DNA of 64,000 nucleotides, from contig CAUYUJ010015849.1 of assembly GCA_963575745.1 (NCBI GenBank), forward strand, positions 202,328 through 266,327, read 5' to 3'. The position numbers and the translations under genes are program-made. This stretch comes from Prorocentrum cordatum (lineage: Eukaryota; Sar; Dinophyceae; Prorocentrales; Prorocentraceae). Below, piece after piece: positions 34,689-57,464 of the stretch (its first letter is position 1; each line of letters begins with the position of its first letter). The notes below the pieces were generated by a model. That model was given only the letters and a program-made list of their open reading frames with translations. It was not told where the DNA came from and ran no database searches.

Positions 34689-34810
34689 ACCTAACATCGA
34701 AGACTGGTAGGTTTCTAGTGGGCTAAAAACAGCTCACAGATCACTCCACAGGGGGGTCCGGGCAGGTGTTGGGAGTTGCCGGGCGGGTTGAGTCCACCTC
34801 GTTTTTCACC

Positions 34811-35172
34811 AACAGTCACACACTTCGTGCTCTTCGAGTTCCCAGAACTCCATTCCCAGGCTCATTCTGAATAACCGGATGCAACAGTCACACACTTCGT
34901 GCTCTTCGAGATCCCAGAACGCCATTCCCGGGCCACATTTAAATAACCGGATGCAACAGTCACACACTTCGTGCTCTTCGAGTTCCCAGAACTCCATTCC
35001 CGGGCCACATTCTGGAGGGCCGGATGCAACAGTCACACACTTCGTGCTCTTCGAGTTCCCAGAACTCCATTCCCGGGCCACATTTTGGATGCCCGGAGCC
35101 AACTGTAGTCCACTTCCTGGTCTTCGAGTTCCCAGAACTCCATTCCCGGGCCACATTTTGAATAGCCAGACG
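34811..35172. repeat. 72-bp tandem array upstream of the first element gene
   Basis: Five copies beginning AACAGTCACACACTTCGTGC, at 34811, 34883, 34955, 35028 and 35101 (the last diverged at its start). Each holds CTTCGAG(T/A)TCCCAGAAC and CCATTCCCGGGCCACATT. It lies about 120 bp inside the left end of the element and 120 bp before the first ATG, so it could be promoter repeats or Rep-binding iterons. Neither role is shown. Confidence 0.9.
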
Positions 35173-35290
35173 CTTCATATCCTTCCGCCACAGCCGTGTT
35201 TGGTTCAGGACTTGCTAGTGACACTGCAGTCCACTGCATTCAATCGTGCCACTGCATTCATTCACTGCAGTCCACTGAGTTTCGATTGCA

Positions 35291-37513
35291 ATGGCGTTCC
35301 CCTGGCCGTACCCCCATGTCCAACGTTCATCCGCAGCCTCTGCTCCGCGAGGCTCGTCCGAAGTGTCGCCGCCTCGCGGTGCTTCTCAGCCTGCGCCGCC
35401 TCGCGGTGCTTCTCAGCCTGCGGAGGAAGGTGGACAGACGCCTGGTTCTGGCGCTGTGCAGCCTGCGTCTTTCACGGTCGCCTCGTTCAATTTCGGGTTC
35501 GAGCAGGGCATGATGACTGGTAAGCAGGCGGCCACTCACTGCGCTAACTTCGGAAGGGTGTGCGCCACGATAGTGGAGACCGCTGATGCTGATATTGTCT
35601 GTGCATGCGAGGTCGGTGCGTTCCGTGAAGGCTTTCGCCGAGCAGGGATCAACGTGACAGAGATCCTCAGTAAGCCTTTCGGTGATGGCATTGGCTTCTC
35701 GGAGGTCGACAACTACTTGACTCTCTGGGGCTTCCGCGGTGCTTCTCAGCCTGCGGAACTGACTCTGTGCGAAGACAGCAAAGTTTACAGGCCTCCTAGC
35801 GGCCGAGAGATTGATGCTGTTATTTCACATTTTGAGGTGAACAAACCAGGCCATGACAAGTTCCACGTGGTGATCGCCAACATGCACATCGTGTGCGGCA
35901 AGAAACCGCCGACCATCCAGACTCGAAAGCGGACAGTTCGCCATCTCCGCTTGCACCTGGACTGCATGGCTCAGATTCTCAATGCTTCGGAGCCGCACGT
36001 GCCAGTCGTTCTGCTTGTAGTCGGCGACGACAACCTGACTTTCCAGGAGGCGCGGGAGGCTTACCAGCGCCAGCAGAACGACGAGAAGCTCTGGGAGGTC
36101 CATGCCACTCCGGCCGACCTCAAAGGCGACCACGTCGCGGTCTGCGGAGCAGTCGCCCGTTTCTGCTCCATTGCCGTTGGCGCGTCTTTTACGGATCGTG
36201 GCATGCGCAACGACGCACACGATGCGGTGGCGGTTGTGCTCACTCTCCCTGGTGCTATTCAGCCTGGGGAGAGCAAGAGGCGGAAGATTGTCGTCGAAAA
36301 CGTCTCCGACGCCGACGTCAGCGTACAGGCGGACGCCGAGTCTTCTGTGCATTGGGATCGGTCGCCGAGTTCTACTCCTCCGCTTTCACCGACTTCACCG
36401 GCTGATCCCGACTACGTCGAGGATGTCGTTCAAAATCGCGCGAACGACTTGCACAGGGAGCTGAGGCAGCTTTGGGACGAAAGGTACGACGAGGAGTACG
36501 ATCCGAAAGTCCTCCATCATCTCAGTCTCTTGCTTTTCAAAAAGAGGAAGTCCACGGAGCCAGCGGACACTGATCCAGCTGGCGCTCCTCAGCCTGGCTC
36601 GGAATATGACGCGGCCTTTGCGTCTCAGGAGGAGACTGGCCGAGCCATTCTCTCTGTCCTTAAGCTTCGACATGACTTTCTGCGGAGCAAGAACATCGAC
36701 GACATGCGCTACGTTCTCACGGAGCCTGAGCGCCAGGAATTGGTCAGAGTAGCTCGCGACCAGTACGAGCAGTCGCGGCAGCAGCGTGCGCTTCAGGAAC
36801 GGGATGTCGAAAAGGGAAAAGCGAGAGGCAAGTCTGCGCCACAAGGGGGCCATGCGGTTCCGCAGGGTCCTAACAAAGGGCCAGGCGGTAAGAAAGGTTC
36901 TCACGGTGCTTCTCAGCCTGCGGGAAAAGGTGGCCAGGCCAAGGGTGCAGGTCTGGGTAGCGTCGCCAAGTTTGTGAAAGACCAGAAGCGTAAGCGGTGG
37001 CATCGCCATTTGCAACGTGTGGCCGGTACCAAACAGATCTGGGAGGTGCTGGCCTTCTCAGGGCGCTTCGACGTTGATTGGCTAACGCAAGCGTTGCAAG
37101 CTGATCACAGTGAGGGCCGTGATACAGCAGTTCCCGAGGAAGCTCTGCGGGAACAGCGGCGCCGTCTGCACCACCAGAAGGCCGAAGCCATCGCGCGCTA
37201 CAACGAGGGGGAGCGGCTTTCCCGCCATCGCGAAGAGGTCCGTCGTGTCGGCGCTCTTCCGTCTGCCCAGGCTGGCCAGCCAAAGCCGAACTTCACGCGC
37301 AGGCAGCTGGACGTGTTGCAGATGTTTGAGAGCGGAGAGCTGCTTCAAATCCGCAACCAAGCGATTCTGGCGTTGGGGCACGGCCGTCTGCGCAGGGCCG
37401 GAGGCGACTACCTTGACATCGGCGGCAGCACGGGCGGTGGCTCCAGGCGCATCATCGATTCTTGGCAGCCGCCGGACTGGCGTGACTTCCTCCAAGACGA
37501 TCAGGACATCTGA
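35291..37513 (+). CDS. Endonuclease/exonuclease/phosphatase-fold protein of the element
   Basis: 740 residues, one uninterrupted frame. Residues 61-320 look like an EEP (AP-endonuclease/DNase I) fold. The matching points are FTVASFNFGF with Asn67, DIVCACEVGAF with Glu107, FHVVIANMHI with His199, LLVVGDDNLTF with Asp246 and Asn248, and NDAHDAVAVVL near His310 where the family usually has Ser-Asp-His. The order and spacing fit, but the last motif is atypical, so activity is uncertain. Hairpin copies encode GASQPA at residues 30, 39 and 150, the last inside the catalytic domain, and again near residue 540. Residues 330-740 are charged and contain a Lys/Gly-rich segment. In Helentrons an endonuclease is usually fused to Rep/helicase. 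Here it is a separate upstream gene. Confidence 0.6.
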   Translation: MAFPWPYPHVQRSSAASAPRGSSEVSPPRGASQPAPPRGASQPAEEGGQTPGSGAVQPASFTVASFNFGFEQGMMTGKQAATHCANFGRVCATIVETADADIVCACEVGAFREGFRRAGINVTEILSKPFGDGIGFSEVDNYLTLWGFRGASQPAELTLCEDSKVYRPPSGREIDAVISHFEVNKPGHDKFHVVIANMHIVCGKKPPTIQTRKRTVRHLRLHLDCMAQILNASEPHVPVVLLVVGDDNLTFQEAREAYQRQQNDEKLWEVHATPADLKGDHVAVCGAVARFCSIAVGASFTDRGMRNDAHDAVAVVLTLPGAIQPGESKRRKIVVENVSDADVSVQADAESSVHWDRSPSSTPPLSPTSPADPDYVEDVVQNRANDLHRELRQLWDERYDEEYDPKVLHHLSLLLFKKRKSTEPADTDPAGAPQPGSEYDAAFASQEETGRAILSVLKLRHDFLRSKNIDDMRYVLTEPERQELVRVARDQYEQSRQQRALQERDVEKGKARGKSAPQGGHAVPQGPNKGPGGKKGSHGASQPAGKGGQAKGAGLGSVAKFVKDQKRKRWHRHLQRVAGTKQIWEVLAFSGRFDVDWLTQALQADHSEGRDTAVPEEALREQRRRLHHQKAEAIARYNEGERLSRHREEVRRVGALPSAQAGQPKPNFTRRQLDVLQMFESGELLQIRNQAILALGHGRLRRAGGDYLDIGGSTGGGSRRIIDSWQPPDWRDFLQDDQDI
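36243..36273 (+). repeat. Hairpin A example with a 10-bp arm
   Basis: CTCTCCCTGG (36243-36252) pairs with CTGGGGAGAG (36264-36273), including two G-T pairs. The outer arm is unlike the CCTGC...GCAGG arm of the copies at 37612 and 37688, so it is an independent, compensated arm. Confidence 0.8.
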
Positions 37514-38929: not shown

Positions 38930-39152
38930 CTCGTAGCCATTTTGCTTAGAGCTGTCCTGTTCTGTACATGCCTTGCGCCGTGTGACCACGTGGCGCGGTG
39001 CTTCTCAGCCTGCGTGGTTCTTCCTGGTGCTCCTCGGTGTAGTAGCCATGGTGAAGAAATTCCTTTTGAAAACGAAAAAAGGTGTGACCAGGAGGTTTTT
39101 ACCCGCGGTCGTTCCCACCATGGAGAAGAAAGACTTGGCCACCCCGAGGAGC
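38727..39152 (+). repeat. 426-bp duplicated 5' region, copy 1 (upstream of and into ORF2)
   Basis: It aligns with 41116-41541 at high identity from CCTCGTTTAAACTCCA to CCACCCCGAGGAG. It contains a palindrome copy, an (ATC)n run, the spliced-leader-like sequence, a hairpin and the first 34 codons from the ATG at 39048. Sequence on either side is unrelated. Confidence 0.9.
38930..38951 (+). other. Spliced-leader-like relic ahead of ORF2
   Basis: The 22-nt stretch contains CGTAGCCATTTTG, which matches the conserved centre of the dinoflagellate spliced leader; by my count about 16 of 22 positions agree. It lies about 100 nt before the ORF2 ATG, where a trans-spliced mRNA would begin. A relic here would mean that an mRNA-derived copy was written back into DNA. 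Confidence 0.45.
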
Positions 39153-40232
39153 AATGTCACAATGCCAGCACGCGGCAAGGCATCGCCCCCGCCACCCCCG
39201 GCCCCGTGCGATGGCCCGTGGGAGATTCTGCCGGATCCGCCCGCACCGACTCCTCAGCCAGGTGTCGACGTGGTCTTTGAGCAGGCTCACCTCGAAGACA
39301 TCCGCCGTACACCAGGGATGGGCGGCAAGACCGCCTGCCAGTGGCAGCGCGCGCTGCGCGCCGAGTGCATTGTCAACAACTTGTCGTTCAAAGACGTAAC
39401 AAACGACCCGTCCTACGACTGGAAGCAACTGCTTCGGTCTGCCGCTCCGGGTTTCGCTGAGCGCATAATCGGGCAGGGCATCGCCCAGGTTCTCTTTCGC
39501 ATCATCGAGACAGAGCGCGACCCTAACTACTCCAACACGGATGGCCACGGCAGGCACTTCTTCGAGTTCCGTCGCGCAGACGGTTCAGCCATGCGCCTGC
39601 ATTACCATAAGAACGGCCGACCCGATGAGCCCACCTATGTCGGTCCACCACGCGCCGTTGCTCAGCCTGCCGTGCCTGAGCCTGGCGCTGCTCAGCCTCA
39701 TGTTCCTCGTGGCGGCGCTGCTCAGACTGCCGTGCCTGACGGTGGCGCTGCTCAGCCTGCCGAGACTGGCGGTGATGCCCCACTGCTCTTCACACAGGAG
39801 CACCTGCAAGAGGCAGCCTGCTCGCGCCAGATTGTGGGCCGCGACGAAGCCAGCGCCGCTCTCCAATCGCTGTTGCACTACCACCATGGCGAGACTGCCC
39901 CAGGTGCTGTTGACATCACCGATGGCTCAGCATTTGACTGGCTTCGATGGGTGGCACATATCGAAGGTGCGCGCGACGTCATCCGCAATGGCGTCCACAG
40001 GGTCTACGCTGTCCGCTGGAATCCGCACTGGGCTCCAGAGGCCGTCTTCTGCTACGGCAACAACACGTGCAGCACACTGGTGCCCCGCAAATCGCGCTAC
40101 ACAGGCTCGTGGAGCCACGCGCGAATTGTGACTCACCGGAACGCCAATTGGGTGACCGAACCGTTGCTATCTGCGGCCCCTGTGGCAGCTACGCCGTGGC
40201 TGGTGTTGCGGGATCAAATAACCTGGGAGTGA
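39048..40232 (+). CDS. Element ORF2, unrecognised protein
   Basis: 394 residues from the ATG in GTAGCCATGG. The alternative start at 39120 (CACCATGG) is equally good. The N-terminus is basic (MVKKFLLKTKKGVTRR), then a Pro-rich linker. Two related-looking halves follow: LEDIRRTPGMGGKTACQWQR to HGRHFFEFRRADGSAMRLHY, and LQEAACSRQIVGRDEASAAL to GVHRVYAVRWNPHWAPEAVF. They are joined by a linker of four hairpin-type repeats encoding GAAQPA-like peptides (about 39650-39765). I recognise no family. Weak internal repetition suggests a duplicated small domain. Confidence 0.65.
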   Translation: MVKKFLLKTKKGVTRRFLPAVVPTMEKKDLATPRSNVTMPARGKASPPPPPAPCDGPWEILPDPPAPTPQPGVDVVFEQAHLEDIRRTPGMGGKTACQWQRALRAECIVNNLSFKDVTNDPSYDWKQLLRSAAPGFAERIIGQGIAQVLFRIIETERDPNYSNTDGHGRHFFEFRRADGSAMRLHYHKNGRPDEPTYVGPPRAVAQPAVPEPGAAQPHVPRGGAAQTAVPDGGAAQPAETGGDAPLLFTQEHLQEAACSRQIVGRDEASAALQSLLHYHHGETAPGAVDITDGSAFDWLRWVAHIEGARDVIRNGVHRVYAVRWNPHWAPEAVFCYGNNTCSTLVPRKSRYTGSWSHARIVTHRNANWVTEPLLSAAPVAATPWLVLRDQITWE

Positions 40233-41541: not shown

Positions 41542-41714
41542 CTACTATGGTTTGGCATTGCTCATTCCGTCCGCCCATGTTGTATTTCGTTTTCGTTGGG
41601 TTCTGCTTTGAGACATCTCCATACTTATTTAATTGTTTCGGGAATGTTGTTCTGCGGGATTCTGGTTCATTACAGGTTTTTTGCTGTGTGTTCATTTTTC
41701 GGAAACATCGTTAA
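41436..41714 (+). pseudogene. Truncated ORF2 N-terminus in the duplicated block
   Basis: The 34 codons shared with ORF2 (MVKKFLLKTKKGV onward) run into unrelated sequence and stop at 41714. They are in a different frame from ORF3, so this is probably a leftover rather than a fusion, unless splicing joins them. Confidence 0.5.
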
Positions 41715-43519: not shown

Positions 43520-45412
43520 ATGGCTGCTGCTGCAGAACAGCCGACGTCTCCACTGGGTTTTCTCACGAAGAGCAGCGCCAAAACCCAAGACTTCCTTGTC
43601 CGAGTATACAAGCCCAGGGAGATCAAGTACTCGTACAAGAGCAGGAACAATGGCCAGCTAGTCCATGCAAACCGATTCACATGCATTCTGCTTGGCACAG
43701 ACTCAGAGCACTATTGTGAGGCCATCCTCAAAGGAACTCCAGCAGAAGTCCAAGCTGCTCTGAAAAAGTTCCCTCCGATGACGGCGTGGAAACTCTCCAG
43801 CGTCGGCCTGGACAGTCGGCAGCAGGACGCTTTTGTGCATACGTCTGTTCGTGTCGTGGTCGACCTCAAGCGCACAACCTGCACTCCAGTGCTCAAAAGC
43901 TCTCCGGAGGAGACCTCCTTGGCATCGGCGCCGGCTCCAGCGACTACAGTGGCAGACATGATGAACATCAAATCGCAGCGTTGCTTCGATGTCATGGCTG
44001 TGGTTCATTCTGTTTCAGAAACCCGCACTCCCGCTGGCCACCCTCCAATGGCAAGTGTACATCTGGTCGACGGCACACAGACGAGTAACTCCAAGACAGC
44101 GGAGGCTGTGATTGCAGTCTGGGGATCCACCAACACAGAGCTTTGTCGCTCTGACAAAGGACAACCGCTGCTGTTTCTCAACGTGGCGGGCAAATTCGAC
44201 GGCAAACTGGAGCTGAACTTGTCGCAAGATCGCGTGGTGGATTCCGCATGCTCTTGTCCCAGAATGACTCAACTACACGACTTAGCAGCCACTCAAGACT
44301 TCGCGATGGACCGGGAGCAGCTGACCACCGCTCATGCGGGTACATGGGATCCAGACCAGGCTTCGCAGATTCTCACCGGAGAAGCACTCCTCTCCTGCTG
44401 TGCCTTTCTGGCTATGGCGTCGGATGATCCGAATGCAAACTTGCCACTCTTGTTGCAGGTCAATGGGATGAGGCTTGAGGAACCGGAGCCAGCCGACTCT
44501 GTGGTGGAGAACACAGGCGAGCGCGTCTTCTTTACGACTACTGCTCGTGATTTCAGTGGCTCGTGCAAAGTCGGCGTATCCCAAGCGGCAGCCTTCGCCT
44601 TGACTGGCATTGATAGCATGCAAGAATTCAAAAAAGTTCACGACGAGAAAGCTATCTCCTTCCCTCCACTGAGCAATTGTCGCATCATACGACGCGTGCG
44701 CAATGTGGCTGCGAATGCACAGGATGACACACCTCAACGGACTTTCGTCAACACGACTGTGGTGGCCGTTTCACCGCTTCAGATATCGCACGCCCCGAAT
44801 ACGTCTTACAATGTCGTCTTGGAGATCCTGAAGCAGTGCCGCGAGAGCCAGGATGCAATGCTCGCGGCACAGCTCTCTGAGATACGGTCTTGTCCCTTCT
44901 ACGGCATGCGCGTGCAGTACTCACCAGCGGGTGGCGGGGGTGACGCTTCTCAGCTTACCCGGAACTGCCACTTGGCAGTCGTTCTCGTTCGTACCACGCA
45001 GAAGTCTCGGTGCGTATCCACTGCGGCTGGCTTCGTCGTGTCCACACCAGGTGTCACGGACGCTTCTGACGGTGAGTCTTCCCACTCAGTGACGATTCAC
45101 GGACACTGCTCAGTTGACAACTTGCTCTCGTTCAAAATGGATCCGCCCAACCGAGCGAAGCACAGAGTCTGCTTGTTGCTCATTACTGGCTGTTCAAAAG
45201 ATGGCATGACGGTGCACAGCGTGACCCACATTGACGACTCCGTCGTGTCTGAGGCGCAGTACTTCATTAAAAAATTGAGAACACTGGGGATGCGCACAGA
45301 GCTTCAGCAATCAGGCGAGCATAAGCGGATGAATGAGTGGAGCACGACGCCGGAATCCGCCAAGAAGTGCCGCATTCTTGAAAGCCACCCCTCAGGAGAA
45401 AGCTTGAGGTGA
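43520..45412 (+). CDS. RPA-like single-strand DNA-binding protein of the element
   Basis: 630 residues from the ATG in TACCATGGC. Residues 154-245 read like a replication protein A OB fold: RCFDVMAVVHSV, VHLVDGTQTSN, AEAVIAVWGSTN, then PLLFLNVAGKFDGKLELNL. Residues 25-125 may be another OB fold (REIKYSYKSRNNGQLV ... VHTSVRVVVDL). The remainder may contain more diverged OB folds. RPA-like genes are known cargo of plant and some other Helitrons, where they are presumed to protect single-stranded intermediates. A variant hairpin at 44938-44960 encodes DASQL. There are no internal stops or frameshifts. Confidence 0.65.
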   Translation: MAAAAEQPTSPLGFLTKSSAKTQDFLVRVYKPREIKYSYKSRNNGQLVHANRFTCILLGTDSEHYCEAILKGTPAEVQAALKKFPPMTAWKLSSVGLDSRQQDAFVHTSVRVVVDLKRTTCTPVLKSSPEETSLASAPAPATTVADMMNIKSQRCFDVMAVVHSVSETRTPAGHPPMASVHLVDGTQTSNSKTAEAVIAVWGSTNTELCRSDKGQPLLFLNVAGKFDGKLELNLSQDRVVDSACSCPRMTQLHDLAATQDFAMDREQLTTAHAGTWDPDQASQILTGEALLSCCAFLAMASDDPNANLPLLLQVNGMRLEEPEPADSVVENTGERVFFTTTARDFSGSCKVGVSQAAAFALTGIDSMQEFKKVHDEKAISFPPLSNCRIIRRVRNVAANAQDDTPQRTFVNTTVVAVSPLQISHAPNTSYNVVLEILKQCRESQDAMLAAQLSEIRSCPFYGMRVQYSPAGGGGDASQLTRNCHLAVVLVRTTQKSRCVSTAAGFVVSTPGVTDASDGESSHSVTIHGHCSVDNLLSFKMDPPNRAKHRVCLLLITGCSKDGMTVHSVTHIDDSVVSEAQYFIKKLRTLGMRTELQQSGEHKRMNEWSTTPESAKKCRILESHPSGESLR

Positions 45413-46401
45413 GCTTTCTCCTGTCTTGTCAGCGATGCTTCTCAGCTTGCTGGACATGGCAAGCGTCTTTGTCCTGCGCCTTGCGGGATGCCAACTAGGT
45501 TTGCCTCAAACATATCGTTTGGTAGTTTCGTTGTTTATGCGGTGCCTCTCAGCCTGCACTATTTACTGTTGTGGCGTCTGGTGCAAGAGTAGTGTTTGCG
45601 GCCTGCATTCCTCCTCAGCCTGCCCTGGTTCCCTTGAGAGTGCCTGCACAAAGTTTCGGTCTGTGCTCAGGTTGCCCAACGGATTGATTCACGTTCGCCT
45701 GCGGTGCTTCTCAGCCTGCACTTCCTTTGCTACAAGCGCCTGTTCTGCAGTCGTTCAAAGTGTCTCGTTTACAGAGAATTTCCGTGTTTGAGAAAAAAAA
45801 CATTTCTGCATGTGTTCCATTGGAACCTAAATCAGGTCATGGCCGTGCTTCATTGCAAGACAACCCCCATGTTCGTAGCAGTGTCGATATCAGACGTTCG
45901 TTCAGTTATAAAAGCGTTGATACCAGTGTCTCGTTTTCGGACGCCTCATTGTATATCAACTCTGGCTGTGCCTCATTTCAAGACACCTCCCATGTGCGTA
46001 GCAGTGTCGGTATCAGAGGTTCCTCCAGTTATAAAAGCGTTGATAGCAGTGTCTCGTTTTCGGACACCTCATTGTATATCAACTCATTGATACCGAGTTT
46101 CCTCTCAGCATACGTCAATGCATAACAGTTTATCTTACTTGCTGGAACCGCCTCCATCTTCACTATCATCACGACTGGTTCACGTTGGCCTGCGGTGCTT
46201 CTCAGCCTGCAGATCTTTTGCGACCTCATCATCGCCATTGATCATCATCACCATCAACATCACTGATTCACATCATCACCATCACCAACATCCTCCACAA
46301 CGAATTTCCCTCATCACCATCATCATCATCAATGTCTCCGTAGCCATCTTGCCTAGAGCTATCCTTACAAAGGAACTTTCCAGCACCCACTGCACACAGT
46401 A
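45413..46401. other. Element intergenic region with hairpins, palindromes and ATC runs
   Basis: Hairpin-type copies occur at about 45428, 45540, 45605, 45703 and 46190. Two copies of the 45-bp palindrome lie at 45916-45960 and 46039-46083. (ATC)n tracts lie at 46215-46335. No gene is supported. Confidence 0.6.
46337..46358 (+). other. Spliced-leader-like relic ahead of the DUF6570-like gene
   Basis: The best of the three relics. TCCGTAGCCAT is exact, the rest has four mismatches, and 18 of 22 positions match the dinoflagellate leader as I know it. It ends 43 nt before the ATG at 46402, the distance expected for a short 5' untranslated region. Confidence 0.55.
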
Positions 46402-49053
46402 ATGCCGCGGCATGCTGGTAGCTCTCGGTCTGGGCGCCATGCTCCTGACGTTTCTGCACCCAACAGCGGTGCTCCTCAGCCTGCTGCAGTGAGCAGTGCC
46501 CCTCCTCAGCGTGCTGTGTTGAGCGGTACTGTCCAAAGGATTGTTGACCTGGTGAAGCAGTTCGGTCGTATACCGAAGCAACAGAAAGGAACGTCCGAGG
46601 AAGTACGAGCTGAAAACAAGTTGGCCAAACGTTTCTCCGACCACCGCGACAGCATTCCTAATGACGTTATGTTAGAGTTGCAAGCCCTCGAATGCGCCAC
46701 GCCTTCAGAGTCAGCCGCTGTCAGCGCTGCCCTTCAGCGTTCTGCATTAAGCGGATCTCTGCAAACGCTCGTCGAGGACGTGAAGCAGTTCGGTCGTATA
46801 CCGATACGAAATATCGGAACGTCTGAGGAAGCACGAGCCGAAAACACCTTGGCCAGACGTTTCTTCAGGCACTGCGAGAGCGTTCCTAATGACGTGATGT
46901 TGGAATTGCAAGAACTCGAGGGGTCGCGCGCCGTCAGCGCCGAGGAGTTCAAGCGGAAGCAGAAGACCGATGAGATCCTGCAGAATGTGCGCGAATTCGG
47001 CAGCTGGCCGAAGGAGAGCGCTCAACGCCCGCTTGCAGAGCGGCAGTTGGCTTGGCACATCCGAAAAACACGGAAGGCCAAGCATTTCTCACCGGAGCAG
47101 GAGGCCGAGCTTCAAACTCTGCAGCAGGCGGATACGAAGTCCGACGGGCGCGTGCAGCAGACGAAGATCGAGGAGGTCATGCAGCAGGTGCGAGACCTCG
47201 GCCGCTTTCCGAAAGAGTCCGCCGGGCGTAGTGTTGCAGAGCGGCAACTAGGCTGGCTAGTTCGGAAAGGATTGAAGGCCAAGCAGTTCTCTCCCGAGAA
47301 GGAGGCCGAGCTCCAGGCACTCCAGCAGGCGGAAAGCGATGGCAAAACAATGCTTCGCATCGCGGAGGCGGAGGAAAGGCCAAACCCCATGGAAGGGTTC
47401 GCTGAGGAGGCGGGGAACAGGATCGACCAGGGTCTGCTGCTGCTGGAGAGTGGCATTCGTAACAAGGCAATCCTGCGGCGCCTGGCCACCTACAAAGAGC
47501 TTGTGTCCAGCCGCGGTGCTCCTCAGCCTGCGCAGCACAGGGAATTTGCGCAGAGGTACGCGGAGCGAGTGCGGAGAGCGTTGGCTGCTCCCGCAGGGAA
47601 GAGCTGCTACGTCCCCGGCGGCGAAGTAGAGGGGAACCAGTTGCGCGTTTTCTCTAACCGTGCAGTCATGACGGGACCGCTCGTCTGCCAGCTCTGCAAC
47701 TGCGATTTCTTAATAGAAGAGGACTTTGCGCGGCATAAGCAGTGCAACCACGCCGGCGAGGCAGAATACCGCAAACGGGTGCTGTACCTGATGGCACACG
47801 CTGGCTGCAGGCCGATAGCCGCTCAAGAGAAGAGGATCATGGTGCAGAATTTTGCTTTCTTCCAACAGTTCTGTCACCCTGGCAGCAAGTCCAACCGCTT
47901 CTCGGGCGGCGAGGCGGTGCCCCGAAGCGAGGCAGCCTGCGTAGTCTGTGCGCAGAAAGACTACCTGGAGCATCGCCACAAACTCAGCCTGTTTGGAGCA
48001 GTGCCGGAGGAGCGTGTCTTTGAGCACTGCGCCGACTCAGCAAGCGATCGTGATGACCTATCCGATGGCGAGGCAGATGCTCCACCCAAGCGTGCTCTGG
48101 TGAAGCACCGCGGGGTGTACTACTTGCAGTCCCCGGAGCTCGTGCAGAAGCTCCTGGACGTGGACAGGTACAGGCAGCGGTGGCCACTGATCCCGTGCGA
48201 ACAGCTGCACGCGTCCAGCGTTCAGCATCCGGAGCACCCAGAGTGGCGGTGGCTGCTGCACTCCCGCCGAGTCCCTGTGGTTGCACCACCAGAAGCAACG
48301 GCGGGAACCTGCGGTGCTTCTCAGCCTGCCGCCGACAGGTCCGGCGGAGCTTCTCAGCCTGCGGACGAGAGGCCTCCGTGCGCAGGAGTGGGAGATGCCA
48401 GCGCGTTGGTGTGGGTCTGTTGGGATTGCCTCAATGACCTGTGCGCCAAGAAACCGAAGATGCCGCTAAACGCCCTGGTCAACGACAACTGGATCGGCCG
48501 GGAGCTCATGCTCGTCCGCAACGCTTCGAAAGCTACTAAGATGCTGGCGCCCCTTGGCCGATGCTGTTGGAAGCAAGTCCGCCTCGGCAAGGGCGCTCCG
48601 GATGTCCAGCAGAAAGGCATCTCGGGCAACACTATCCTCTTCGCCCAGCCCACGGCGCAAATCCCGACCATGGAGCTGCCCCCGGAGCAGGGCGCGCTTG
48701 TGGACTCTCTGAACATCGTTTTCTCGGGCGCCGCGCACAAACTCCACAAGGCGTACTGGGCAACAGTCAAGCGCGGCGAGTATATGCAGATCGCGAGGGA
48801 GCGCAAGCAGCAGTGCGCAACCTTTTCCGAGGTATCCGTCCGGGAGGATGTTGCCCCGACACGGCTGCCGGAGGACGGCGTGCCCGACCACATCCAAGCC
48901 TGTCTGCAACCAGTGGACGGTGCGGACAAAGCCCCGGTACGTCTGTTGGGGCCAGCATCCAGGGCGCCGGAAGTGGGCAGAGACGACGAGGCGGGAGACG
49001 AGTCTGACGAGGAGAGAGACAGACAAAGACGGAGAAGCAGCAGAACAGCCTGA
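46402..49053 (+). CDS. HA-repeat, C2H2 and DUF6570-like protein (N-terminal part of the Rep system)
   Basis: 883 residues. About residues 30-310 hold four related helical repeats (VKQFGRIP twice, then VREFGSWPKES and VRDLGRFPKES), each ending in a Leu/Glu-rich helix. They resemble helicase-associated repeats. A C2H2 finger, CQLC then H and H four residues apart, lies near residues 431-452. From about residue 570 to 775 a region with CWDC (near 672), NDNWIGRELMLVRNASKATK, GISGNTILFAQ and DSLNIVFSG matches the pattern of the DUF6570 domain seen N-terminal to many Helitron Reps. The tail is acidic then basic. The stop at 49053 is followed at 49055 by the Rep N-terminal frame, one base out of register, so either two proteins or a frameshift. 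Confidence 0.6.
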   Translation: MPRHAGSSRSGRHAPDVSAPNSGAPQPAAVSSAPPQRAVLSGTVQRIVDLVKQFGRIPKQQKGTSEEVRAENKLAKRFSDHRDSIPNDVMLELQALECATPSESAAVSAALQRSALSGSLQTLVEDVKQFGRIPIRNIGTSEEARAENTLARRFFRHCESVPNDVMLELQELEGSRAVSAEEFKRKQKTDEILQNVREFGSWPKESAQRPLAERQLAWHIRKTRKAKHFSPEQEAELQTLQQADTKSDGRVQQTKIEEVMQQVRDLGRFPKESAGRSVAERQLGWLVRKGLKAKQFSPEKEAELQALQQAESDGKTMLRIAEAEERPNPMEGFAEEAGNRIDQGLLLLESGIRNKAILRRLATYKELVSSRGAPQPAQHREFAQRYAERVRRALAAPAGKSCYVPGGEVEGNQLRVFSNRAVMTGPLVCQLCNCDFLIEEDFARHKQCNHAGEAEYRKRVLYLMAHAGCRPIAAQEKRIMVQNFAFFQQFCHPGSKSNRFSGGEAVPRSEAACVVCAQKDYLEHRHKLSLFGAVPEERVFEHCADSASDRDDLSDGEADAPPKRALVKHRGVYYLQSPELVQKLLDVDRYRQRWPLIPCEQLHASSVQHPEHPEWRWLLHSRRVPVVAPPEATAGTCGASQPAADRSGGASQPADERPPCAGVGDASALVWVCWDCLNDLCAKKPKMPLNALVNDNWIGRELMLVRNASKATKMLAPLGRCCWKQVRLGKGAPDVQQKGISGNTILFAQPTAQIPTMELPPEQGALVDSLNIVFSGAAHKLHKAYWATVKRGEYMQIARERKQQCATFSEVSVREDVAPTRLPEDGVPDHIQACLQPVDGADKAPVRLLGPASRAPEVGRDDEAGDESDEERDRQRRRSSRTA

Positions 49054-49054
49054 C

Positions 49055-49516: not shown

Positions 49517-51175
49517 GTCTTCCCCAGGAATACTACTTATGCTACCAGTGTTGATAGAGGAGTCGATCCAGTGATAGCAGTGTGTCGTTTGGACCTACAT
49601 GTGTTGATAGCAGTGTCTCGTTTGGACCTACATCCATTGATCGCAGTGTCTTGTTTGTACCTACGTGGGTTGATAGCAGTGTCTCGTTTGGACCTACATG
49701 TGTTGATAACAGTGTTTCGCTTGGATCTACACCCACTGATACCACTGTCTCGTTTGGACCTACATGTGTCGATAGCAGAATCTCGTTTGGACCTACACAT
49801 GTTGATAGCAGTGTCTCGTTTGGACCTACATCCATTGAAAGCACTGTTCCGTTTGAACCTACATGTGTTGATAGCAGTGTCTCGTTTGGACTTACATGTG
49901 TTGATAGCAGTGTCTCGTTTGGACATACATCGATTGATAACAAGGTTGCGTTTGGGCAGCGTCTCCTCTGGATCTACATGTGTTGTTAGCATTGTCTCGT
50001 TTGGACCTACATGTGTTGATAGCAGTCCCCTTTGGACCTACATCCATTGATAGCAGTGTCTTGTTTGTACCTACATGCGTTGATGGCAGTGTCCCGTTTG
50101 GACCTACACGTGTTGATAGCAGGGTTCCGTTTGGATCTACACCCACTGATCCCATGGTCTCGTTTGGACCTACATGTGTTGTTCGCAGTGTTGCGTTTTG
50201 ACCTACATGCGTTGATAGCAGTGTCTCGTTTGGACCTACATCCATTGATGGCAATGTCTCGTTTGTACCTACATGCGTTGATAGCAGTGTCTCGTTTGGA
50301 CCTACATGTGTTGATAGCAGTGTCTCGTTTGAACCTACATCCATTGATAGCACTGTTCCGTTTGGACCTACATGCGTTGATGGCAGTGTCTCGTTTGGAC
50401 CTACATGTGTAGATAGCAGTGTCGCGTTTGGATCTACACCCACTGATCCCATTGTCTCGTTTGGACCTACATGTGTTGTTCGCAGTGTTGCGTTTTGACC
50501 TACGCGCGTTGATAGCAGTGTCTCGTTTGGACCTACATCCATTGATGGCAGTGTCTCGTTTGTACCTACATGCGTTGATAGCAGTGTCTCGTTTGGACCT
50601 ACATATGTGGATAACAGTGTCTCGTTTGAACCTACATCCATTGATAGCACTGTTCCGTTTGGACCTACATGCGTTGATAGCAGTGTCTCGTTTGGACCTA
50701 CATATGTGCATAACAGTGTCTCCTTTGAACCTACATCCATTGATAGCACTGTTCCGTTTGGACCTACATGCGTTGATGGCAGTGTCTCGTTTGGACCTAC
50801 ATGTGTTGATAGCAGTGTCTCGTTTGGACATACATCAATTGATAGCAAGGTTGCGTTTGAACCTACATGTACATGTGTTGATAGCAGGGTCTCGTTTGGA
50901 CTCACATCCATTGATAGCAGTGTCTTGTTGGTACCTACGCGCGTTGATAGCAGTGTCTCGTTTGGACCTACATGTGTTGATAGCAGTGTCTCGTTTGGAC
51001 CTACATCCATTGATAGCACTGTTCCGTTTGGACCTACATGCGTTGATAGCAGTGTCTCGTTTGGACCTACATGTGTTGATAGCAGTGTCTCGTTTGGACC
51101 TACATCCATTGAACGCAAGGTTGCGTTTGGACCTACATGTCTTCATAGCAGTGTCACGTTTCTTCGTCCTTCGAG
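49517..51175 (+). other. Probable GT...AG intron made of minisatellite
   Basis: It starts GTCTTCCCCAG and ends TTCGAG before GTCGCACGG: canonical GT and AG, phase 0, with a G after the acceptor. It is 1,659 bp, a multiple of three. Nearly all of it (49549-51160) is the 33-bp repeat. Alternatively it is a minisatellite expansion in a broken gene. Confidence 0.5.
49549..51160. repeat. 33-bp minisatellite, about 49 units
   Basis: The unit is GTTGATAGCAGTGTCTCG then TTTGGACCTACAT plus a variable 3-4-bp end (GTG, CCA or GCG), which gives a weak higher-order pattern. Because 33 is a multiple of three, frames stay open on both strands and produce 11-residue peptide repeats, which I do not call as genes. 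The left half of the unit matches the 45-bp palindrome family elsewhere in the element. Confidence 0.95.
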
Positions 51176-54100
51176 GTCGCACGGCGCCTCATCAACCTGG
51201 AGGAGCTCGAGTACTCTCTCGCGACCGACGAGGAGCCCTACGAGGCAGCCTGCCAGAGCCGCTTCAGCTCGCCAGAGATCATTGCTGTCTTCGGCGACGT
51301 GATCCGCCGGCTGCGGCTCTTGAAAGGCACTCGGGCGGCGATTGGCAGGAAAGGCTTCGGCACTGACCTCCAGATCCTGTCAGAGGCGTCGGCGGAGGAT
51401 TTCATGGAGGCGCTAAACATAGCTAAGCCGGGCGACTGCATCGGCTCCGCCATTTCACGCCCGGGCATGCCTGCCAAGGTCAAGACTGCCCTCAGGACGT
51501 TGCTACTTAGCACTTCCGATGTCCCTGGCACGGAGGGGCGGAAAACCGCACTCCGCTTCGACGGGCACGGCAACAACCTCAAGTTCGGCGCGGCCAGCTT
51601 CTTCGTCACACCGAACTTCGCAGACACGTACAGCCCGTTGGTCCTCCAGCTTCACGAAGGGCCCGGAAAGCGGAGCCACTTAGACATTCGCGGGGGCGCG
51701 GTTGGCGCGGTGGCCAGAGCCGGCGGCGCTTCTCAGCCTGCTGGCCCTGACCTGCGGAGTCCAGCTCCGACCATGCCTTCTCTGGAGCGGATGCACCAGA
51801 TAGTGGCAGCAGACCCGCGGGCGCAGGCCAAGTTCTTCCTGTTGATGACGGAGCTTCACTACCGCTACATCATCGGCTTAGAGCGCCTGTTTGTTGGCCG
51901 CACAACGCTAGCCCGACAGGCGGTGACAACGGAGGACGACGTGGCAGCGTCTCTGCAGCCGTGCGTGGCCCCAGGCACCACTGATGTGCAAGCGCCTTTC
52001 GAAGCACAGGGTCGGGGCTTCACGCACGGCCACGGCAAAGGCCACAGCGTCATCGGGCCTACGATGGCGTGGCTGCGGTCGGCAGTGGTCGGAGGCCTGC
52101 GCACCGCCGCTCGGGAGCTGCGAACTGCGCTTCTTTCCACCGCGGAGACCGTGCAGTACGAAGCTGCCAACGAGCCCGCACGGCAGCTGGGGCTTCCTGA
52201 CGTCGCGCCAGAGCCTTTCACAGCCAGGCAGCAACGACAGAGCCGCATGGACGGAGGGGAAGAGGAGGACGGCACCCTGCGCGACGAGGTGCCTCTCGGC
52301 CCGCCAGTGGAGCAGCCGCACCTGGTGGAGGAGCGAGCGCGGGCAGCCGCAGAGAACCGGATGCCTGCAATCGGCGCTGCAGCGTACCGGGGCCTCCCGC
52401 TCACAGGAGCCTTTCAGTCTACGTTTCCAAGCTACCGCCAACGAACTAGCTTCGGGCAGCTAGGTGGCGCTCCTCAGCCTGCCATGGCAGCCAGCCATGC
52501 TAGCCTCTTCCAGACGAACGAGGATGGAGCGATTCAGGAAGTCCTCAAGCCCGATGGCTCGCCGGCTTCGGTCGAGGAGATTACCGCAGATGCGGAGGCT
52601 TGGGCGGTAGCGTTTAGCCATGACTTCTTTTGCAACATCTGCTCCAACCACGAGCACGACTGCACCGAGACGTGCGTCAAGTACGTCAAGAAGAAGCTCG
52701 AGGCCAAAGAGAGTCTGCGCTCGAACAGAACCCCGTCGTGCCGCTTCTGGTTCTTTCGCATCCAGCAGCTATGTCTAGCAGGCCGCACCAAGCGAGTGCG
52801 TCGGCGCGGCAAGCCTTTGGTCCGGACTCCGTTCATCGACTTCTCTGATGACCGCAACCAGCGGTGCCGCTGCCAGGTCAAACGCGACCAGCCGTTCAGG
52901 AGCTCCAGCAACGACGTCTCTCAAGTGACCAGCCGGTGCAACGTGGATTTCCAGTTCTTGATGTGCGCGCCTGACGAGTCTGCCGAGGCAGCAAAAGTGC
53001 TTCAGCCTGGTGGTGCTCCTCAGCCTGCCCAGGACGGGCTGCCTGCGGCCGCCCCAGCTCAGCTGGCCAAGCGCAGAAGGCTTACCAAGAAAACGGCCAG
53101 CATGAAGAACCCAGAGTCGGCAATCGCATTGCGCTCATCCAAACAACTCGGCGGCCGCAAAAAGTGGCTCTACGGTTGTGGCTCCTTGCATCCGACAGAT
53201 GCATCTGTCGTGGAGAGCTTCCAAGCTGCTTTCCAGAAGGCTTTCTCCATGGACTTCTACATCACGAAGTACCAGGGCAAGATGATGGAGTCCATGACGC
53301 CGCTCTTCCAGTCTATGCTCACCGGCATGCAGCGTCTGCAGCAGCAGGAGAGGGACGAGAACGAGGAGGAAGCCCGGAAGGTGCTCAGTGAGGGCGGCGC
53401 TGATGGCGAGGACCAGACGCTGGCCAAACGGGGCCGGACGCGCGAGGATCTCGCTCGCCGCGCTCGGCGGGTCTGTATCCGCCTGGCGTCGATGGCGAAC
53501 CGGTGCTTCTGGCTCTCCACGACGGAGGTGGCCGTGCATATCCTCACAGGCGGCGACTGCCTCCAGTCGCACCACAATGTGCGGCTCTTCACGAGACAAC
53601 TACAGTGGGCCTGCCAGCAGTGCAAACGCTTGCTAAACCATGAAGGTTCGGGCGAGGAGACGCATAATGATCAGGTGCCAATACAAGCAGTCCGCATCCA
53701 GATCCCTGACGCCGACAACGAGGAGGAGGACGCAGCAGGTGACACCAGCGGTGCTCCTCAGCCTCCTGGAGACACTCCTGCTGGTGATGAGCAAGGTGGC
53801 GGTGCGGAGTGCGAGGACATGCACGTGTGCACCACCAGCACGAACACGGCCGACGACTACGCCCACAGAGGCCCTCGCCTGCAGACCATGCCGTACTACG
53901 TCTACAGGATGTACGTCCGGCGAGTCCTGAAGCCGAGCCGGGTCAAAGCTTCTGGACCGCGATTCTTCGCCTTCGAGAGCCACTACGTCTTGGCTCCGCG
54001 GTACATGCAGGAGGTCCGGTTGACGCGGAGTGACGTCCCCACCATCGATGGCTTCCAGTGCCCGACATGGGCACAGGACCCCGAGCAGAACTCGCTCTTC

Positions 54101-54325
54101 AAGGCCCTCCTCTTCACGCCTTGGGCGTGCGAGTGTCCCCTCTCTTGTGGCTGCGTTACTCAGTACAGCCATATGCTGAGGAACTGTGGCTGCGTTACTC
54201 GTTCGAGCGGGCGCGGCGGCTTCGGTGCGCGGAGATCCACGTGTTGGCAGCGCGCGCAGACTCCAGGAGCCGCCTGGCCCGCAAAAGGCTCGTGCTCGCG
54301 GACACGACCCTCTTCTCCGAGCTGA
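51176..54325 (+). CDS. Helitron Rep, second exon (HUH endonuclease)
   Basis: The frame matches the first exon. [20 protein letters not shown] and [15 protein letters not shown] complete the N-terminal domain. The catalytic HUH motif is [12 protein letters not shown], with histidines at 52025-52027 and 52031-52033. The two-tyrosine motif is YITKYQGK, with Tyr codons at 53258-53260 and 53270-53272. These residues nick and join DNA in rolling-circle transposition, and all appear intact. A Cys/His cluster [15 protein letters not shown] lies between them (about 52630-52675). Near 54130-54160 the sense moves one base to the helicase frame, so the last roughly 55 residues before the stop at 54325 are probably not real. 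Several GASQPA/GAPQPA hairpin-encoded peptides are inserted, for example near 51724, 52466, 53010 and 53749. Confidence 0.7.
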
Positions 54326-56907
54326 AAGAGCCCCGGGCGAACCTCGAGGAGGGCGAGCTGGTGCTCCTCAGCCTAGCGCACTTCGCAAGGTCCCAGCTGG
54401 CGCGGCGCATGCCAGCGGAGGCGGCACGGCGCATCCTTGCCTTCAGTGACCACCACTGCCGGTGGCACGAGGAACAGTGCACCCTGGCGGAGTTCTGCGC
54501 GACCGTGGCGCGAGACGTGCTGGCGCACGTGGACCTCGCGGCGGAGGCGCGGGTTAAGCCTCGGCCAGCAACGACTGCACACCTCGAGGCGGATGAAGAC
54601 TCCGCGAGCGATGCCGAAGGGCTCAAGGGGCGAGTCCCGCTGGAGCTCGTTGACGTGGGTGGAGGCGGCGGCAGCGACGTAGAGGAGGACGTGGAGGACG
54701 CCGAGATTACCGAGATCTCCCGGTTTCCGCTGCGGGACCACGTCAGAGCAACCGAGCTGGCCCTACAGCAAGACCAACTGCAGCGCTTGGACCAGAAGGG
54801 CCGCCTCAGCTACGCCGATAAGCAGTTGAAGAATCTCGACCGAGCGTACAGCGGCATGCTGCAGCCAAGCTTTGCACTGCCAGCCAGCAGCGGCGCGCGG
54901 GAACATCAGGGCACGCGGCTGGACGAGACCTTTTCTGACATGCTCGCCCTACAGCGGCAAAGCATTGCGCTCCAAAAGAAGCAAGCGAGCCCGGATGGAG
55001 AGATCTTGCCCGATGCTGCGGACGACTGGCTCCCCAGCGGTGCTCCTCAGCCTGCTGCCGAGGACGCCCAACCAGAACTCGTTCCGCAGCTCTTGGCCAT
55101 GCAGGGCCCGGCGGCTGTTGCGTGGAAGCTCGTCACTGATGCCCACTGCACGGAGGAGCAGATTGACGCGGTGGCGTTGTTTGCGTTGTCTCTGCAGAAA
55201 CGTTTTGACGGCAGACCAGACAAGACAACGCATCTCCTCCCCGTGGCGTCCGCGACAGGCAACCACAGAGCGATCTGGCTCGGTGGAGGCGGTGTCGGCA
55301 AGACGCGCACCCTCTCCAAAGTGGTGGAGCCGATGGCCATCACTTACTTCGGCGAGCAGGGGTACCTCGGCAAAGCGCAGTCCAACCACGCCGCACACAA
55401 CCTCGGCCCGCGCGGCAGGACCATGCATTCCTCCAATGGCCTGCTCATGTCGGATTCCATGCAGACAGCCAGGCTGCGCTTGACGCCACAGACGCAGAAA
55501 AAGCTGGATCGCCTCACAGGCACACTCGGCGTCGACGTGATCGATGAGCTGGGTGCTGTGCCGGGGCCTTTGCTGCATGCAGATGCACTGCGCACGACCT
55601 ACGGCAGGGCGTTGCGCTACAACCTGGACCCCGCGAAGTACATGCGCCCGCAGGAGACGTGGGGACGCATGCCTGTGAAGATCTTGTGCGGAGACTTCTA
55701 CCAGTTGCCGCCAGTCCCCGCCACCGCTTCCCTGCTGGCGCCTCACGCGGGCCAATCCTACGAACACCAACAGGGTAGGAAGTTGCTCGCCGACATCGAG
55801 TACGTCATCGATTTCGTGCAGATGCAGCGCTTTACAGACCCGTTGCAACTCGAGGTTCTCCACGCCATGAGAACTCCAGGCGGAAAAAAGATCTCTGACG
55901 AGAGCTGGCAGGCGATCGTCAAAACAGAGGTCGTTAGCTCTAGCGGTGCTGCTCAGCCTGCTGCCAGCAGCAGCGAAGCCGCTCAGCCACCTCAGTGGGA
56001 CCCTCGGTTGCGTGCAGCACGAGGCTGGTACGAGTCGGCCTATGAGTGGCGCATCGTCTCTTACGCCATGCATGCACAGGCCAAGCTTGATGCGCACGAT
56101 GCTGGCCAGCTGCTCTTTTACGTCCCAGCAATCGACAGACCAGCTGCGCGCCTCGCGAAGCCTGATTTCGACGAGATGCGCGCGGAGCCCAACATCGGCG
56201 CTACCGCAAAAATGCCGGGGCTGCTGCCGCTCTTCGTTGGCATGGAGGTCATCCTGACAGAATCCGTCTTGCCGCCGAAGTATGTCCGTGGCGCGCCAGG
56301 CAAAGTGGTAGGCATAGAGCTGCACGTTCTGGAGCCTCCGGTGGAGGGCCGCCCGTCCATTGTCTCGGACGGTGTGGTCGTACTCTACTACATGCCAAAG
56401 GCCGTCTATGTCAAGATCGATGACAGCGATGAACTTTTCTTGAAGGCCGCGCCGGTGACAGCTGGCAGTGCTTCTCAGCCTGCCGGCCCCGACCTGCGCG
56501 GAGTGCTCGCGATCACCCCGCAGGCGCGCCCCTGGAAGTTCAAAGCGAAGACAGGTGGCCCGGCCATCGCGGTGTCCAGGACGCAGTTGACCGTGCTGCC
56601 CAAAAAGCAGGGGACTCTGCATGGCGTCCAGGGCAAGACGACGGACCCAGGCTTCATCGTGCACTGGACGTTTCCGCCAGGACTCAAGAAGGAGTCCATT
56701 TGGCTTGCCTACTACGTCAGCCTGTCGCGCCCCAGAAGCTTCAACCAACTCTTGAGCCACGGCTTGCCTGACCGGAGCATCATCGAATCCGGCCCCCCGG
56801 AACAGATCGCCAAGGCCTTCGCCGAGCTCTTCACGGACAAGATTGCCGCGACGAAGATCGCTTGCGCGAAGGCCCGACAGCAACTGGGATGGCCTGCGCG
56901 AGCTTGA
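54058..56907 (+). CDS. PIF1-type helicase domain of the Helitron RepHel
   Basis: The frame is open from 54058 but probably real from about 54150. [28 protein letters not shown] and GELVLLSLAHFARS are linker sequence. The helicase then shows motif I GGGGVGKT (55285-55305), motif II VIDELG (55536-55553), motif III GDFYQLPPV (55690-55716), a conserved QMQRFTDPLQLEVLHAMRTP (about 55818-55877), motif V GTLHGVQGKT (about 56611-56640) and motif VI YYVSLSRPRSFNQLL (about 56710-56755). All expected catalytic residues are present. It unwinds DNA 5' to 3' during rolling-circle transposition. It stops at 56907. Hairpins encode GAPQPA, GAAQPA and SASQPA at about 55038, 55945 and 56467. Confidence 0.8.
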   Translation: MPDMGTGPRAELALQGPPLHALGVRVSPLLWLRYSVQPYAEELWLRYSFERARRLRCAEIHVLAARADSRSRLARKRLVLADTTLFSELKEPRANLEEGELVLLSLAHFARSQLARRMPAEAARRILAFSDHHCRWHEEQCTLAEFCATVARDVLAHVDLAAEARVKPRPATTAHLEADEDSASDAEGLKGRVPLELVDVGGGGGSDVEEDVEDAEITEISRFPLRDHVRATELALQQDQLQRLDQKGRLSYADKQLKNLDRAYSGMLQPSFALPASSGAREHQGTRLDETFSDMLALQRQSIALQKKQASPDGEILPDAADDWLPSGAPQPAAEDAQPELVPQLLAMQGPAAVAWKLVTDAHCTEEQIDAVALFALSLQKRFDGRPDKTTHLLPVASATGNHRAIWLGGGGVGKTRTLSKVVEPMAITYFGEQGYLGKAQSNHAAHNLGPRGRTMHSSNGLLMSDSMQTARLRLTPQTQKKLDRLTGTLGVDVIDELGAVPGPLLHADALRTTYGRALRYNLDPAKYMRPQETWGRMPVKILCGDFYQLPPVPATASLLAPHAGQSYEHQQGRKLLADIEYVIDFVQMQRFTDPLQLEVLHAMRTPGGKKISDESWQAIVKTEVVSSSGAAQPAASSSEAAQPPQWDPRLRAARGWYESAYEWRIVSYAMHAQAKLDAHDAGQLLFYVPAIDRPAARLAKPDFDEMRAEPNIGATAKMPGLLPLFVGMEVILTESVLPPKYVRGAPGKVVGIELHVLEPPVEGRPSIVSDGVVVLYYMPKAVYVKIDDSDELFLKAAPVTAGSASQPAGPDLRGVLAITPQARPWKFKAKTGGPAIAVSRTQLTVLPKKQGTLHGVQGKTTDPGFIVHWTFPPGLKKESIWLAYYVSLSRPRSFNQLLSHGLPDRSIIESGPPEQIAKAFAELFTDKIAATKIACAKARQQLGWPARA
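54147..54202. repeat. 39-bp tandem duplication at the Rep/helicase frame change
   Basis: TGTGGCTGCGTTACTC occurs twice, 39 bp apart (54147 and 54186). The duplication adds 13 codons (LWLRYS twice) without itself changing frame. The one-base slip between Rep and helicase frames lies just before it. Confidence 0.75.
56461..56487 (+). repeat. Hairpin A example inside the helicase gene
   Basis: GCTGGCAG (56461-56468) pairs with CTGCCGGC (56480-56487) over 8 bp. The usual G-T wobble of the core is A-T here because the 5' base changed. It encodes SASQPA in frame. Confidence 0.8.
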
Positions 56908-57434
56908 GGAGCCATGAGATGCAGGTTGCGTTGTGGCGGTGCTGTTCAGTCTGTCCGTCTGCATTCGCGTGGTGCTTCTCAGCCTGCATGCGCGTGGTGC
57001 TTCTCAGCCTGCGCTCGTGTGCAGCTGTGCGCGGTGAGCCTGCACGTGTCGCGGAATGCTTTTCAGCCTGCGCGTGTCTGCAATGCTTTTCAGCCTGCAC
57101 GCTTTGCAGCTTCTCCGCTTCGCACGCCGCTCCTCAGCGCGGTCCTCTGAAAAAAGGACAGTCATCATCTCATCGTCGCACTCATCATCGCACTCATCAT
57201 CATCATTCATTGCCAGCGTTGATAGCAGTGTCTCCTTTTTACACGACTGCCACCATTCATAGCAGTGTCTCGTTTTGACACATTTCCAGCGTTGATAGCA
57301 GTGTCTCCTTTTTACAGGACTCTGAACTACAACTACTACTTCACTGTTACCACTGTTTCATCTTTCCTGCTCTTATTGCTAATACTACTGCGAGTGTTAC
57401 TGCTGCTGCATGCCTCCAGCTATGCTACTACATA
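56908..57434. other. 3' non-coding region of the element
   Basis: A cluster of hairpin A copies (56935-57085), (ATC)n runs (57180-57205), three partial left halves of palindrome B (57214, 57256, 57288) and a CTACTACTTCACTGTTACC-like stretch shared with 40835-40860. The right inverted repeat follows. Confidence 0.6.
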
Positions 57435-57464
57435 TCGATGTTAGGTTGCTTTGCCGGGATAATT
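57435..57464. repeat. Right inverted repeat and terminus of the element
   Basis: TCGATGTTAGGT is the reverse complement of the first 12 bp of the element. It is followed by TGCTTTGCCGGGATAATT up to the host sequence. I see no clear 3' terminal hairpin of the kind canonical Helitrons have, which favours the Helentron-type reading. Confidence 0.7.

Follow-up and report, generated by a model that had tools for sequence, protein, structure and literature searches.

A strand-locked, covarying hairpin family within a large Helitron-superfamily element of Prorocentrum cordatum

The window analysed here is a stretch of 64,000 nucleotides from the dinoflagellate Prorocentrum cordatum (assembly GCA_963575745.1, contig CAUYUJ010015849.1, positions 202,328 to 266,327, forward strand). 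It contains a transposon of the Helitron superfamily, which encodes a Rep with HUH and two-tyrosine motifs together with a PIF1 helicase and for which a clean empty site is preserved nearby (Table 1). The most unusual property of this element, absent from an earlier description made from the sequence alone (the original prediction), is a family of short bulged hairpins that is locked to one strand and whose base pairing is kept by compensatory change.

The element, its ends and its genes

Table 1. Features of the element and its empty site, in window coordinates
Feature	Position	Strand	Evidence or remark
Whole element (net insert)	34689..57464	+	Empty site and ends; ends shared with six other copies
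5' asymmetric terminal inverted repeat, ACCTAACATCGA	34689..34700	+	Single occurrence in window
73-bp tandem repeats near left end	34810..35164	+	Tandem-repeat scan
EEP-like open reading frame (ORF)	35291..37513	+	SFNxG, CEVG, NMHIVCG, GDxNL and HD motifs; 17 homologues
Hairpin family, core GCGGTGCTTCTCAGCCTGC, 54 copies of a 23-nt bulged stem-loop	35374..57100	+	26 within called genes, 28 outside
ORF2, carrying hairpin-encoded peptides	39048..40232	+	No Pfam match
ORF labelled RPA-like in the original prediction, label unconfirmed	43520..45412	+	26 homologues
DUF6570 ORF	46357..49053 (or from 46402)	+	Pfam E 8.9e-9, above cut-off
33-bp tandem array of second motif, 1.6 kb, between DUF6570 ORF and Rep	49572..51161	+
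Rep ORF (open frame)	51149..54325	+	Helitron_like_N E 6.3e-5, below Pfam cut-off
PIF1-type helicase ORF (open frame)	54034..56907	+	PIF1 E 1.6e-4, below Pfam cut-off
3' asymmetric terminal inverted repeat, TCGATGTTAGGT	57435..57446	+	Exact inverse of ACCTAACATCGA; single occurrence in window
Empty site, GGATATTTTGGACACG	58520..58535	+	Uninterrupted in next host repeat unit

The original prediction had placed both ends of an insertion to within a few bases, with an exact inverse of the left end about 18 bp inside the right end and the pre-insertion sequence kept at the following repeat junction; each of these points was borne out. The 22,776 bp between the limits represent the net gain from insertion, and a T-run allows the edges to slide by up to 2 T. 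The 3' repeat lies 18 bases inside the right end (range 16-18). Among 100,000 pairs of segments drawn at random from the window, 4 had an inverted match of at least 12 bases, the length of the terminal repeats. The element sits in a host tandem repeat, whose next unit aligns with the left flank over 941 bp (94.9% identity) and with the right flank over 72 bp (100% identity). No multi-base target duplication was seen, only two extra T at the clean empty site, with a TT ambiguity remaining. At the 5' end, ACCTA of the terminal repeat is able to pair with TAGGT at 34708-34712, a weak fold that 30 of 200 shuffles equal, and no 3' subterminal hairpin folds in 57435-57470 or 57447-57466. A 425-bp segment is present twice within the element, at 38727-39151 and 41115-41539, with 98% identity.

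The proposed boundaries recur elsewhere in the assembly (4,128,499,153 bases, or 4.13 Gb, in 21,875 contigs). A query of the last 100 bases returned 840 candidates, and all 40 that were scored matched at 99-100% over 97-100 bases. Six further copies were extracted and compared with the window copy: four full-length, measuring 22,585-22,761 bp between end words as compared to 22,774 in the window, and two internal deletion derivatives of 5,521 and 11,072 bp that keep both ends and are candidate non-autonomous elements. All seven copies, the window included, have identical ends but for one base in one copy, lie in unrelated flanks and are bordered by TT or more on both sides. The check for further copies that was proposed with the original prediction is thereby passed in full at the right end and, for these six copies, at the left end. 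In the ten pairwise comparisons of the five full-length copies, identity ranges from 99.34 to 99.65%. Near-identical copies with shared ends and different flanks speak for a recently active, recently amplified transposon family.

All genes of the element run on the + strand, as do the hairpins. The Rep carries its HUH motif at 52016-52045 and its two-tyrosine motif at 53252-53281, the latter retained in 18 of the 22 homologues reaching that region. The helicase motifs fall within 55282-56736, before the ORF ends at 56907; solved PIF1 structures were matched by sequence (E 6.1e-5), and 73 homologues of the helicase part were found. The original prediction of a RepHel with intact HUH, two-tyrosine and PIF1 motifs thus stands for the motifs and fails for the gene, which is frame-broken in the window copy: the helicase ORF is out of frame with Rep, the shift lying near 54190. 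Each of seven long homologues matches the sequence before and after this point in a single open frame, leaving 0-62 residues unaligned in the middle, and the frame-breaking deletion is absent from all six other copies.

The EEP-like label is based on motifs. Catalytic-type motifs are present, with GDxNL in 16 of 17 homologues and the other motifs in 9-15 of 17, some homologues being truncated, and the structure model is of medium confidence (predicted local distance difference test score, pLDDT, 63.7); no Pfam match and no PDB sequence match were obtained. For the gene at 43520-45412, called RPA-like, Pfam and PDB sequence searches gave no support and the structure model was poor (pLDDT 52.8). 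Homologue searches with the helicase part, the EEP-like ORF and the 43520-45412 ORF scored the 8000, 8000 and 7999 candidates sharing most words, respectively. No OTU gene was found among the element ORFs scanned, no helicase relatives in GTDB genomes and no match in Rfam at gathering thresholds. A viral origin was rejected: neither the helicase nor the 43520-45412 gene had a relative in viral contigs, and the helicase had none in phage records.

The array between the DUF6570 ORF and Rep may be an intron or damage. Its motif, GTTGATAGCAGTGTCTCGTTT, is found 46 times when three mismatches are allowed, never outside the element or on the - strand, and also occurs at 38115-38855, 41184-41243, 45916-46059 and 57218-57311; its translation also opens the homologue P0049, just before the Rep part. 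As a second hairpin this motif was rejected, having no helical register and a top score that consists of one observation at an expectation of zero.

Hairpin copies inside and outside the element

The word GGTGCTTCTCAGCCTGC has 37 matches in the window within two mismatches and 54 within four, and the placement of all 54 on the + strand and inside the element rejects a chance origin of the family. Background appears at five mismatches, with 62 matches inside and 10 outside the element on the + strand and 3 inside and 5 outside on the - strand. The alignment of the 54 copies describes a hairpin of six pairs, a bulged base, three pairs and a four-base loop. Folded as RNA, the copies have a mean of -8.0 kcal/mol as compared to -4.3 once their letters are shuffled, with an apical part present in 45 of the 54. 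With a covariance model built from the copies, 55 matches scored E<0.1, none of them outside the element or on the - strand and 53 of them the model's own sequences; the best match elsewhere in the window had an E value of 0.52.

The same orientation holds in the other copies of the element. The five full-length copies contain 54, 54, 53, 54 and 53 cores, none of them on the other strand, and the deletion derivatives contain 11 and 30, all on the same strand. One core (window position 35405) is absent from two of the five full-length copies as part of a 27-bp tandem duplication, indicating that copy number is now changing by duplication.

Within genes, the copies read GAxQPx-like peptides (GASQPA-like) in 16 of 16 cases at two mismatches or fewer and in 24 of 26 at four or fewer. 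Such agreement would be expected from selection on the peptide, with GASQPA functional or merely a flexible linker and the DNA resemblance incidental, but this reading is disfavoured to the point of being scarcely credible. More than half of the family (28/54) lies outside called genes, and residues outside the peptide covary as base pairing predicts. Furthermore, in the 24 peptide matches found regardless of DNA, the fifth codon is CCT in 22 (89/314 in genes) and the second codon is GCT in 21 (127/536 in genes), so that codon choice follows the DNA word. Peptide convergence was rejected on the same codon bias together with covariation at synonymous sites and flanking residues. Largely openly accessible literature contained nothing on GASQPA or GAPQPA peptides and nothing on a Helitron with an "internal hairpin".

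A different possibility is that the hairpin is a general genome repeat, of the host or of another organism, that invaded the element from outside. The 19-base core occurs in 11 contigs of GTDB genomes. Nine of these carry one core each, for which an even-base expectation is about two, so that composition may contribute; a further copy at E<0.05 was not detected in any of the nine by the covariance model. The other two, CAIYBQ010000142.1 with two cores and CAIYBQ010000352.1 with one, belong to a single metagenome-assembled genome (MAG) labelled Armatimonadetes, a bin label that we infer to be wrong for these contigs. Here the covariance model found 9 and 8 copies (E<1), all on one strand and in ORFs unrelated to the element; no tblastn match to element proteins was obtained, and six ORFs had no Pfam match above cut-off. 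When MAG copies were chosen by their inner 15 bases only (n=12), the outer pairs were Watson-Crick in 27 of 36 cases as compared to 17.2±2.4 expected (1/5000), and a looser cut gave 35 of 48 against 23.5 (2/5000).

These MAG contigs are the evidence in favour of an invading repeat, which we nonetheless regard as improbable. The 41.2 kb of host flanks in the window contain no match within four mismatches, and ten 5-kb host samples (50 kb) were all without a hairpin, with nothing better than E 0.32. A single core lies in the 29.7 kb of sequence examined upstream of two short copies, and the whole MAG bin gave a single match at E<=0.001 among the 150 of 1389 candidates scored. In viral contigs, a 17-base hairpin word had one exact match in each of six contigs. 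As for other content of the host flanks, positions 3786-4224 hold approximately 73 copies of the hexanucleotide CCGTGA, and an ORF at 28105-28920 on the - strand encodes an AAA_12 helicase domain (E 9.7e-13).

Compensatory change in the window and in relatives

Base pairing was compared across 48 distinct copies in the window. Paired cells amount to 88.2%, as compared to 78.7±1.1% after shuffling (0/500) and 27.5-48.7% in slid controls, and the covariation score is 0.314 against 0.152 for shuffled data. The highest-ranking of all position pairs is -3/+17, followed by -4/+18, the outermost. The former is Watson-Crick in 39 of 54 copies (14.7±3.2 expected; CG 15, GC 9, TA 9, AT 6), in coding (19/26) and non-coding (20/28) copies; the latter reaches 28 of 54 (17.5±3.1 expected), and pairs farther out are at chance. 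As a control for relatedness, one copy was kept per flank cluster (31 of 54). The excess persisted for -3/+17 (21/31 against 8.6), -2/+16 (28 against 21.5) and 1/13 (29 against 25.4), while -4/+18 fell to 14 against 9.3, and 3/12 and 4/11 were left with no informative variation. Of the 18 in-frame copies whose sixth residue is alanine, 13 have in that residue's codon a wobble base complementary to the preceding codon's first base, as compared to 5.7 expected (6/20,000).

These data bear on the simplest alternative, that this is a large but otherwise ordinary Helitron2-like element whose repeats are of minisatellite type and have no function. It has tandem arrays and duplicated segments, and tandem repeats are described as frequent in DINE/Helentron elements (PMC4067079). 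Compensatory pairs, however, are not predicted by minisatellites, and the second motif of the same element, serving as a control, shows none. We consider this alternative, contradicted by the covariation, very improbable.

The pairing can also be read from the protein sequences of relatives, where pairing would give complementary middle codon bases to the residue ahead of GAxQP and the sixth one. From 116 homologous proteins, 135 non-redundant contexts were obtained, of which 103 were kept after ambiguous serine rows were dropped; P0088 was excluded from alignment A1, and P0101, P0108, P0112 and P0114 from A2. Complementary bases were found in 83 of 103 contexts (G-C 53, C-G 15, A-T 10, T-A 5; 20 non-complementary) against 41.7±3.9 expected, with the largest of 20,000 shuffles reaching 60 (0/20,000). 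A stricter redundancy cut gave 44 of 58 against 19.7±3.1. When the preceding residue is R, G or C, the sixth is A in 44 contexts and G in 1; when it is P, A or T, the sixth is G in 15 and A in 0. The core pair is swapped as well, with D...L in 12 contexts in place of the G...P of 110, and with G...L and D...P in 5 each.

The same relationship holds within orthologous sites, of which 15 had five or more members and 10 of these were usable: 96 of 116 cases are complementary, as compared to 59.4±4.2 expected (0/20,000). One helicase site shows H..V, D..V, G..A, R..A and P..G, and one EEP-like site shows P..G and R..A. This within-site covariation indicates that compensation took place after insertion, and on this result palindromic insertion targets were rejected as the sole cause of the covariation.

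It likewise weighs on the possibility that the hairpin is a selfish micro-element, copied by the HUH Rep of the element or another hairpin-processing enzyme in the manner of REP/RAYT systems, with only folded copies moving and the peptide as collateral. The edges of the repeat unit are sharp, the element encodes an HUH/two-tyrosine enzyme, the hairpin occupies many unlike positions in homologues (present in some, absent in others), and insertion at palindromic targets would also give palindromic flanks. Against this stand the compensatory changes after insertion, the covariation of the core pair 1/13 and the longer flanks common to several copies, for which plain duplication accounts in part. 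On balance we judge such a micro-element unlikely.

The hairpin as a possible self-recognition site, and known systems

Compensatory pairing argues that the hairpin works, or spreads, as RNA or single-stranded DNA and not as protein. The element would move by HUH/PIF1 rolling-circle replication into T-runs, as its enzymes, ends and empty site suggest. The many hairpins may be sites at which a protein encoded by the element binds the element's transcripts or displaced strand, and could tag these molecules as self, to be processed, protected, primed for the second strand's start or transposed. The displaced strand of a Helitron is thought to carry RepHel in sense, and therefore RNA and single-stranded DNA both fit. 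New hairpin copies would arise by duplication, seen in part, and perhaps by insertion; copies in genes may survive mostly in the frame that reads GASQPA, as a tolerated linker peptide. Overall, we find somewhat probable, as the best explanation of these sequences, that the hairpin serves as a self-recognition site on the RNA or single-stranded DNA of a large, recently amplified Helitron-superfamily element. More tentatively, the elements may represent a rolling-circle transposon family with an internal nucleic-acid code, in which one-strand bulged hairpins are the self-recognition mark and coding sequence is bent to fit.

Several observations weigh against a self-recognition site. Two of the 26 genic copies are in another frame, and the outermost pair is formed in only 28 of 54 copies. 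Off-pair cells in the window comprise 14 A/C and 27 G/T (constant G-T pair excluded), and A/C beside G/T means that no clear RNA-type wobble bias is evident; at the protein level A-C is the commonest mismatch (8) and outnumbers G-T plus T-G (6). In the MAG, -3/+17 alone is not significant (5/12) and -4/+18 is at chance. Kinship of copies and proteins inflates the shuffle tests, though the excess persists with one copy per flank cluster and within orthologous sites. Neither a binding partner nor a transcript or intermediate was seen, and sense RNA and displaced single-stranded DNA are indistinguishable here since all genes lie on the hairpin strand.

One genome now provides a giant Helitron whose ends are exactly placed, together with full-length copies that are nearly identical and shortened derivatives. 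The hairpin is also a case in which base-pair conservation is readable from the protein sequences of relatives alone. If the hairpin does mark a single strand or RNA, it becomes directly testable by what means a rolling-circle element of 23 kb recognises its intermediate, protects it or converts it. The data also call for caution, in that repeated peptides in mobile-element proteins may be shadows of nucleic-acid structure.

The original prediction had assigned the element to the Helentron/Helitron2 group. Membership in the Helitron superfamily, asymmetric repeats and T/T sites are supported. With Helitron2 (Bao and Jurka 2013, PMC3627910; FoHeli, PMC5148889) the element has in common RepHel, asymmetric repeats (8-15 bp in Helitron2) and T-run insertion. 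It differs in the position of the 3' repeat, which at 16-18 bases is slightly short of the approximately 20-30 bases from the end given there, in the 3' hairpin, for which no counterpart was found, and in its size of ~22.7 kb, several genes, EEP-like ORF and internal hairpin family. With Helentrons and proto-Helentrons, as described in PMC4067079, it shares a TT site, an endonuclease-type gene and extra ORFs. Helentrons are defined there by an endonuclease fused to the Rep/Helicase C-terminus, whereas the EEP-like ORF is unfused and lies ~9 kb upstream of the DUF6570 ORF; the element also has no OTU among the scanned ORFs and is larger, with proto-Helentron-Pi given as ~14 kb. The ends are thus Helitron2-like, and with the endonuclease-like gene separate and no 3' hairpin fold the element fits neither Helentron nor Helitron2 in the strict sense.

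For the hairpins, the nearest comparisons lie outside Helitrons. The operator hairpins of MS2-type phage coat proteins are stem-loops of ~20 nt, also on one strand, that likewise have a bulge and a loop of four bases; this is a resemblance only, between an RNA phage with a coat protein and a DNA transposon. Rickettsia palindromic elements are palindromic repeats inserted in frame in genes. They are longer than 23 nt, bacterial and genome-wide, while the hairpins described here are 23 nt and strand-locked in one transposon family. Bacterial REP hairpins and their RAYT HUH transposases (PMC3116915, PMC2817692) similarly place short repeated hairpins beside an HUH-tyrosine enzyme. REPs are extragenic, whereas 26 of the 54 hairpins are genic, and unlike REP/RAYT systems the present family keeps to one strand and is confined to a eukaryotic transposon with a two-tyrosine Rep.

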